Positions 34,337 through 34,947 of a DNA stretch of 38,704 bases are shown here, piece after piece. The DNA lies in NCBI GenBank assembly GCA_938034905.1, contig CALHLF010000046.1, forward strand, positions 1 through 38,704, written 5' to 3'. The position numbers and the translations under genes are program-made. Source of the stretch: an uncultured bacterium (lineage in GTDB: Bacteria; Dictyoglomota; Dictyoglomia; Dictyoglomales; Dictyoglomaceae). Position 1 is the first letter of the stretch. Each line of letters starts with the position of its first letter. Below the pieces are notes generated by a model. The model searched no databases and was not told where the DNA came from. It saw nothing but the letters and a program-made list of their open reading frames with translations.

Positions 34337-34365
34337 TTGACAGCAAAGCTAAATTATGCTAAAAT
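34337..34365 (+). promoter_or_regulatory. Strong promoter of the RRM protein gene
   Basis: A perfect TTGACA (34337-34342), a 17-base spacer and TAAAAT (34360-34365). Transcription would start near 34372 and make a leader of about 217 bases before the ATG at 34589. Confidence 0.85.
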
Positions 34366-34424
34366 TCTTTTCAGTTGAAAATGTTGAAGGGTTTTTATTT
34401 TTTTAAGGAAGAAGTTTGGGAGAA

Positions 34425-34474
34425 AGAACCTAAGGTTTCTGAGATTTTAGGAATCTTAGGTTCTTTTATTTTTC
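34425..34474 (+). terminator. Intrinsic terminator inside the RRM leader (attenuator)
   Basis: AGAACCTAAG (34425-34434) pairs perfectly with CTTAGGTTCT (34455-34464). The stem extends inward by about six more pairs including wobbles, and TTTATTTTT follows. It lies about 55 bases after the predicted start point and 115 bases before the ATG, so it would stop most transcripts unless it is prevented from folding. Confidence 0.8.
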
Positions 34475-34533
34475 AGAGAAAGAGAGGTGAAGTGTACCGG
34501 GGAACCAATTTAATTTTTCAGAATCTTTTTAGG

Positions 34534-34563
34534 GTTTTAAGAGTTTCCCTTAAAACTCTTAAA
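34534..34563 (+). promoter_or_regulatory. Two mutually exclusive hairpins before the RRM gene
   Basis: TTTAAGAGTTT (34536-34546) can pair with AAACTCTTAAA (34553-34563). GTTTTAAG (34534-34541) can instead pair with CTTAAAAC (34549-34556). The two folds share bases and cannot coexist. They sit 26 bases before the ATG, close to the Shine-Dalgarno (GAGGTGAG), so the fold could set translation. Visible pairing; the switch is inferred. Confidence 0.5.
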
Positions 34564-34588
34564 TCTAAAAAATTTCCTGAGGTGAGAA

Positions 34589-34867
34589 ATGAGTAAGACT
34601 TTGTACGTGGGAAATCTTCCTTGGTCTACTACCGAGGAAGAGTTAAAAAATGTATTTTCAAATTATGGAAATGTAATTTCTGCAAGAATTATCTCGGACA
34701 AAAACACCGGAAGGTCTCGAGGTTTTGGATTTGTGGAGGTTGATGAAAGTTCTGCAGAGAAGATGATTAATGCTTTAAATGGATCAGAATTAAAGGGAAG
34801 AAAAATAATAGTCAATGAGGCAAAACCAAGGGAAGAAAAACCGAGAGAAAGAAGATCTCGGTCTTAA
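34589..34867 (+). CDS. RRM-domain RNA-binding protein
   Basis: A 92-residue protein with one RNA recognition motif. RNP2 is LYVGNL (residues 5-10) and RNP1 is RGFGFVEV (44-51), both with the aromatic residues that stack on RNA bases. A short basic tail (KPREEKPRERRSRS) follows, similar to the glycine/arginine tails of cyanobacterial and thermophile Rbp proteins. Such proteins often act in cold response or RNA stability. The gene has its own strong promoter, a leader of about 217 bases with an attenuator, and a strong terminator, so it is a tightly controlled single-gene unit. Autoregulation by binding its own leader is possible. Confidence 0.93.
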   Translation: MSKTLYVGNLPWSTTEEELKNVFSNYGNVISARIISDKNTGRSRGFGFVEVDESSAEKMINALNGSELKGRKIIVNEAKPREEKPRERRSRS

Positions 34868-34915: not shown

Positions 34916-34947
34916 TATGGACCCCTAATATTAGGGGTCCATATTTT
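34916..34947 (+). terminator. Rho-independent terminator after the RRM gene
   Basis: A perfect inverted repeat, TATGGACCCCTAAT (34916-34929) against ATTAGGGGTCCATA (34930-34943), followed by TTTT. The GGACCCC/GGGGTCC core makes it stable. Confidence 0.85.

Follow-up and report, generated by a model that had tools for sequence, protein, structure and literature searches.

What controls the expression of a 92-residue RNA-binding protein whose coding region is preceded by a leader of some 216 nt? In bacteria that are without other RNA chaperones, RRM proteins are coming to be seen as global regulators of RNA and, to our knowledge, little is known about how their amounts are set. The gene considered here lies in a window of 38,704 nt (the whole stretch of DNA that was analysed), which is contig C46 of a 1.84-Mb genome in 80 contigs, whose close kin comprise only six genomes of a single family, the Dictyoglomaceae, heat-loving bacteria of the Dictyoglomus type.

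The RRM gene and its relatives

34589-34867, plus strand: gene for an RRM-domain RNA-binding protein of 92 aa (PF00076 and NF058537 matches)
34579-34585, plus strand: Shine-Dalgarno sequence of the RRM gene, GAGGTGA
34918-34941, plus strand: terminator-like inverted repeat 3' of the RRM gene, TGGACCCC TAATATTA GGGGTCCA (direct sequence reading)

The protein matches PF00076 with E = 1e-24 and 86.1 bits (cut-off 20.7) and the NCBIfam family NF058537, Rbp_regulator, with 105.8 bits (cut-off 100). With the inverted repeat after the gene, the locus reads as a one-gene unit. Orthologues with 80-91% identity are found in five of the six kin genomes, while the sixth, which is 72% complete, lacks one. 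Comparisons of the leader are thus made among the six Dictyoglomaceae genomes that hold the gene (G000-G005), representing two genera, with G000 being the genome of the window. A literature search returned nothing on the RRM genes of Dictyoglomus.

A conserved leader that starts at the promoter

34337-34365, plus strand: sigma-70-type promoter, with -35 TTGACA (34337-34342), -10 TAAAAT (34360-34365) and an extended TG

A promoter scan assigned 11 of 12 consensus matches and a 17-nt spacer to this site, placing the predicted start of transcription at about 34373 and giving a predicted leader of about 216 nt, in agreement with the consensus promoter and leader of about 217 bases described in the first-pass annotation. 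In the alignment, a promoter occupies the equivalent position in all six genomes. From the promoter onward the leader can be aligned throughout the set, whereas the sequence 5' of the promoter cannot, which assigns the unit to the RRM gene rather than to its hypF-like neighbour. Spacing within the leader is also tightly held in the six genomes: 38-42 nt from the ATG of an upstream open reading frame (uORF) to a hairpin, 8-10 nt from the hairpin to a box complementary to 16S rRNA, and 112-124 nt from the box to the RRM ATG. The leader folds at -61 kcal/mol (z = -2.7), a value equalled by one of 200 shuffles.

The first-pass annotation had proposed a structured leader with an intrinsic-terminator-like hairpin and had named conservation of the pairings in relatives as a check; this was run, and the proposal withstood it, the main pairings being conserved with compensatory changes. 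Its remark that the element belongs to no known riboswitch class agrees with Rfam, which gave no match in the window at the gathering score and, at a relaxed threshold, chance-level matches only, all far below gathering; the corresponding leader loci of the relatives were likewise without a match. The anatomy found here nevertheless differs from, and exceeds, that first drawn, the uORF (34381-34596) and the box (34477-34499) being newly seen. Judged by sequence comparison, the element is a conserved cis-regulatory leader restricted to the family Dictyoglomaceae.

A terminator-like hairpin early in the transcript

34423-34466, plus strand: terminator-like hairpin with conserved arms 34423-34434 and 34455-34466
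34464-34474, plus strand: T-rich tract after the hairpin, TTTTATTTTTC, conserved in six of six genomes

A terminator scan reported a hairpin of 20 pairs at this position, and three terminator-like sites in the region, where 0.5 would be expected. The conserved part is the outer 12 bp. When the two 12-nt arms were aligned, the loop being written as N, pairing held in 72 of 72 cells and changes on both sides were present at five of the 12 pairs across the six genomes; slid controls gave zero double changes. The stem and T-tract noted earlier are accordingly located at 34423-34466, with a tail to 34474, and every pair is kept in six of six genomes.

From promoter to T-tract, the sequence has the makings of a complete small-RNA unit, and a conserved hairpin would also be expected of a small RNA of about 100 nt that ends there, leaving the RRM gene to rely on read-through or on a different start. 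We consider this very unlikely, given that the downstream box and pseudoknot are conserved too, that the six-genome alignment revealed no conserved second promoter, and that the unit is always linked to the RRM gene despite upstream sequence that differs between genomes. An amino-acid-type attenuator with an anti-terminator was also considered; inspection and the leader folds disclosed no upstream complement to the hairpin arms.

An open frame without a conserved peptide

34381-34596, plus strand: uORF of 71 codons that opens at the first ATG 3' of the promoter, spanning the hairpin and the box, with a stop that overlaps the RRM start region (+8)

The frame that opens at the first ATG is 71 codons long in G000, 69 in G001, 43 in G002, 71 in G003, 72 in G004 and 71 in G005. 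Dinucleotide shuffles, a null that carries no constraint from the conserved RNA elements, yielded mean lengths of 12-16 codons; the observed length was reached in 0 of 2000 shuffles (P<0.0005) in four genomes, and in 0.7% and 6% in the other two. In every one of the six genomes the uORF crosses both hairpin and box; the two alternative frames of these leaders hold 3-9 stops. The uORF reaches the RRM start in five of the six, stopping at +8, +4, +4, +4 and -4 of the RRM ATG. Since the RRM gene begins with ATGA, a stop in one frame is partly automatic, so that the position of the stop is not independent evidence. In G002 the uORF stops 85 nt before the RRM gene; hence coupling between the two frames cannot be universal.

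Mismatches in the uORF are spread evenly over the three codon positions (3/3/2, 8/7/7 and 7/7/4), and the box is read in another frame by G002 and G003 than by the remaining four genomes, as would be expected if openness and not the peptide were kept. The third frame of the box, which contains TGA, is used by no genome. It is thus the openness of the frame, and not its peptide, that appears from these alignments to be kept. No Pfam or NCBIfam family matched the uORF peptide. With no codon-position bias, shifted frames among close relatives and no family match, the uORF was rejected as a conserved small protein; the same observations render it highly improbable that this long open frame encodes a functional small protein which merely overlaps the RRM gene. 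A programmed frameshift that would fuse the uORF to the RRM protein was likewise set aside, the relative frames being +2, +1 and 0 across the genomes. Against the transit reading proposed below, no clear Shine-Dalgarno sequence precedes the uORF in the window's genus, where its 5' UTR measures only about 8 nt.

A box complementary to the 3' end of 16S rRNA

34477-34499, plus strand: box AGAAAGAGAGGTGAAG followed by TACCG, complementary to the 16S rRNA 3' end (conservation, duplex energy)

As the 16S 3' end found no match in the window's own assembly, its sequence, GGATCACCTCCTTTCT, was taken from two complete relatives. The box forms 13 pairs with it around one bulged A (AGAAAG-A-GAGGTGA), at a duplex energy of -18.1 kcal/mol compared with -11.5 kcal/mol for the RRM Shine-Dalgarno sequence. 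Similar anti-Shine-Dalgarno energies arise by chance inside genes, and the box ranks fifth in the window; the argument for it is therefore its conservation, not its strength. Among the six genomes it is invariant, save for its first base in G001 (GGAAAG) and two bases before TACCG, and it occurs once per genome with two mismatches allowed. No conserved start codon follows: GTG is present in four of the six genomes and missing in G001 and G002, for which reason a second uORF starting at this GTG was rejected. A search for an antisense partner of the box within the leader gave best duplex targets that differ in place between genomes, and a conserved partner was accordingly rejected.

A strong Shine-Dalgarno sequence that lacks an initiation codon stabilizes mRNA in Bacilli (PMC3997798), and the box shares with such STAB-SD sequences a long pairing with the 16S 3' end and the lack of a conserved start codon. 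A 30S subunit resting on the box could by analogy shield the mRNA beyond it against decay from the 5' end, perhaps once the transcript has been cut in the AU-rich sequence that separates hairpin from box; the conserved 13 pairs and the want of a conserved start codon would suit such a role. We nonetheless judge it unlikely, because the predicted 5' end is about 104 nt away from the box, which makes cleavage a necessary assumption, and because sites of similar strength occur by chance inside genes. The STAB-SD of cryIIIA mRNA is similarly a strong 16S-complementary sequence far 5' of its gene and without a start codon; unlike it, the box stands within an open frame and behind a terminator-like hairpin, instead of at a stable mRNA's mapped 5' end.

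A probable pseudoknot beside the ribosome site

34536-34563, plus strand: hairpin of 11 bp, 34536-34546 with 34553-34563 (covariation)
34539-34543 and 34556-34560, plus strand: pseudoknot stem S2, the conserved part of this hairpin
34531-34550, plus strand: pseudoknot stem S1, AGGG (34531-34534) with CCCT (34547-34550) in the hairpin loop
34526-34571, plus strand: outer helix, TTTTTAG (34526-34532) with CTAAAAA (34565-34571) (read by eye)

Two competing hairpins had been proposed near the ribosome site. The first (34536-34563) is conserved; the second (34534-34541 with 34549-34556) is present in the window and without a counterpart in the relatives, the CCC of the loop pairing more consistently with AGGG at 34531-34534. 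In stem S2, 100% of cells are paired and four of the five pairs show changes on both sides, while in S1 the three inner pairs are kept in all genomes, one with a double change, and the outer pair is mostly broken; the two stems were aligned by hand, with the first loop set as TTTT, one bulge omitted and the other loops given as N, so these counts lean towards structure. In an unguided search the homologous site was the best H-type pseudoknot in five of six genomes, and only two of these beat shuffles (P <= 0.015). We therefore regard an H-type pseudoknot beside the RRM Shine-Dalgarno sequence as likely on comparative grounds, and not as proven. The outer helix can enclose it in the window's genus, where counterparts were read by eye in G001 (TTTTAG/CTAAAA) and G002 (TTTTAA/TTAAAA); the other genus has no clear counterpart. 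Pseudoknots of the preQ1-I kind are alike in their short stems, A-rich third loop and nearness to a Shine-Dalgarno sequence, and differ from the present case, in which there is no Rfam riboswitch match, the Shine-Dalgarno sequence lies outside the stem and no ligand is indicated.

At 50 C the energy model gives the downstream fold about -8 to -15 kcal/mol, at 70 C about -0.5 to -4 kcal/mol, and it places melting near 70-75 C; these figures are suggestive only, and the energy parameters are extrapolated. Such values invite the idea of a temperature-responsive leader, in which structure formed near the ribosome site on cooling would adjust synthesis of an RRM protein that replaces missing cold-shock-domain proteins. 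The search for a cold-shock-domain gene (PF00313) was negative in all seven Dictyoglomaceae genomes (G000-G006) and positive in nine of 14 control genomes, a result that would suit RRM proteins acting in place of cold-shock proteins. The cyanobacterial RRM protein Rbp1 offers a parallel, being required for cold adaptation (PMC9333190). Heat, however, weakens any RNA structure, and folding at low temperature should, if anything, reduce translation, so that we find a temperature response doubtful. The cold-regulated cyanobacterial rbp genes, which have long leaders, likewise encode a single-RRM protein; this likeness is one of gene type only. In Anabaena, rbpA1 has a regulatory 5' UTR.

Ribosome transit as a proposed signal

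The reading that best joins these elements, to which we give a probability of roughly 45%, is an attenuator controlled by ribosome transit and combined with translational coupling. Transcription would begin at the consensus promoter, and translation at the transcript's first ATG (34381). A leading ribosome close behind the polymerase would prevent the hairpin from forming and transcription would continue; with lagging translation, the hairpin would form and transcription would stop near 34470. Ribosomes that continue would cross the box and the pseudoknot, opening the structure beside the RRM Shine-Dalgarno sequence, and would terminate on or close to the RRM start codon, to which they would thereby be delivered. 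The box would serve as a site able to hold the small ribosomal subunit. Translation of the uORF, termination at the hairpin, coupling and the role of the box, that is, every functional step, are what we infer; taken together, they suggest that ribosome traffic probably sets the amount of RRM protein.

In Escherichia coli, a translating ribosome suppresses intrinsic terminators, whereas those located within 100 bp of the start of a coding region are largely insensitive to the ribosome unless special pauses couple it to the polymerase, as in pyrBI (PMC4824070). The hairpin lies 38-42 nt, or 14 codons, into the uORF and hence within this early zone, so that the rate of ribosome loading could influence output; by analogy with those data, the insensitivity of early terminators would count against the transit model. 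As in pyrBI-type attenuation, a hairpin and T-tract are placed inside a leader open frame that ends beyond them (in six of six genomes), a U-rich stretch precedes the hairpin, and the ribosome would serve as the anti-terminator. Unlike pyrBI, the gene specifies an RNA-binding protein and not a function in pyrimidine biosynthesis, a box and a pseudoknot are added, and there is no sign of UTP sensing or of a pause, only the U-rich stretch itself (34392-34403). The leader would thus be a ribosome-controlled attenuator, a variant of the pyrBI kind that is set apart by box, pseudoknot and type of gene. It also recalls ATGA-coupled genes in that, in five of six genomes, the uORF ends on or next to the following start codon, while differing from them in that the uORF has no conserved product and one genome has no overlap.

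If the transit model is true, an open frame without a kept peptide would provide a clean natural case in which ribosome transit, and not a sensed peptide, is the signal. A broader proposition, possible though rather unlikely in our estimate, is that such a frame, under no selection for its peptide, is kept open solely for ribosome transit and lets the cell's general capacity for translation decide whether transcription ends early or the global RNA-binding protein is made. It would hold further, as a wider rule, that RRM genes of several bacterial phyla acquired their structured, feedback-type leaders independently, each of a different design. That conserved leaders of their own precede the RRM genes of Desulfovibrionales, Planctomycetes and Clostridia suggests tight control of such genes as a recurrent feature, one that can be tested.

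A paralogue and the prospect of autoregulation

A second RRM gene, 55-60% identical to the first, is found elsewhere in five of the seven genomes, and the conserved leader of the first gene is absent from its upstream region. In the window's genome (G000:C11:10669-10929, L103) and in its orthologues L104 and L105 this paralogue has a short leader of about 55 nt, which in the window's genus holds a mini-hairpin, CTTAGGTTTCTAAG. In G000 and G002 the paralogue has a terminator with a CCTAAG/CTTAGG stem that resembles the one in the leader of the first RRM gene, and this stem is possibly a recognition sequence common to both genes.

The RRM protein might itself bind the box, the hairpin or the pseudoknot of its own leader and so alter termination or access of ribosomes. 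The leader travels with the RRM gene only (one box per genome), conserved structured leaders stand before RRM genes of unrelated clades as well, and there is precedent in Bacteroides thetaiotaomicron, where the rbpB mRNA carries a CLIP site for RbpB (PMC11697453). The paralogue, however, has a short leader without the conserved hairpin, box or pseudoknot, and we hold autoregulation to be a possibility worth keeping, though not a probable one. Autoregulation, a response to temperature and mRNA stabilization are compatible additions to the ribosome-transit attenuator and not strict alternatives to it.

Leaders of RRM genes in other clades

RRM genes of the Desulfovibrionales (L041, L046, L052, L054, L058 and L074) have a conserved leader in the stretch of about 200 nt before the RRM start; it adopts a branched fold and contains a terminator-like hairpin with a T-run, followed by a hairpin, GCGCACGGGCGC, in which CACGGG is the complement of an upstream CCCGTG. 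Its consensus fold has z of about -7.4, ten pairs carry changes on both sides, and the loci scanned gave no Rfam match. In planctomycetes (L034, L044, L045, L048, L053, L056, L063, L068, L073 and L076), the last 160 nt before the match are conserved and structured (z about -6.3), and the G-rich Shine-Dalgarno region forms part of a stem; the four that were scanned gave no Rfam match. The last 160 nt before the match are also conserved in Clostridia (L019, L021, L027, L028 and L033; z about -5.1), and in some members pairing is possible between GCACTTTCC and the Shine-Dalgarno region GGAAAGTGC. In three of these clostridial loci (L019, L021 and L033), the RRM gene lies downstream of a 5S-tRNA cluster.
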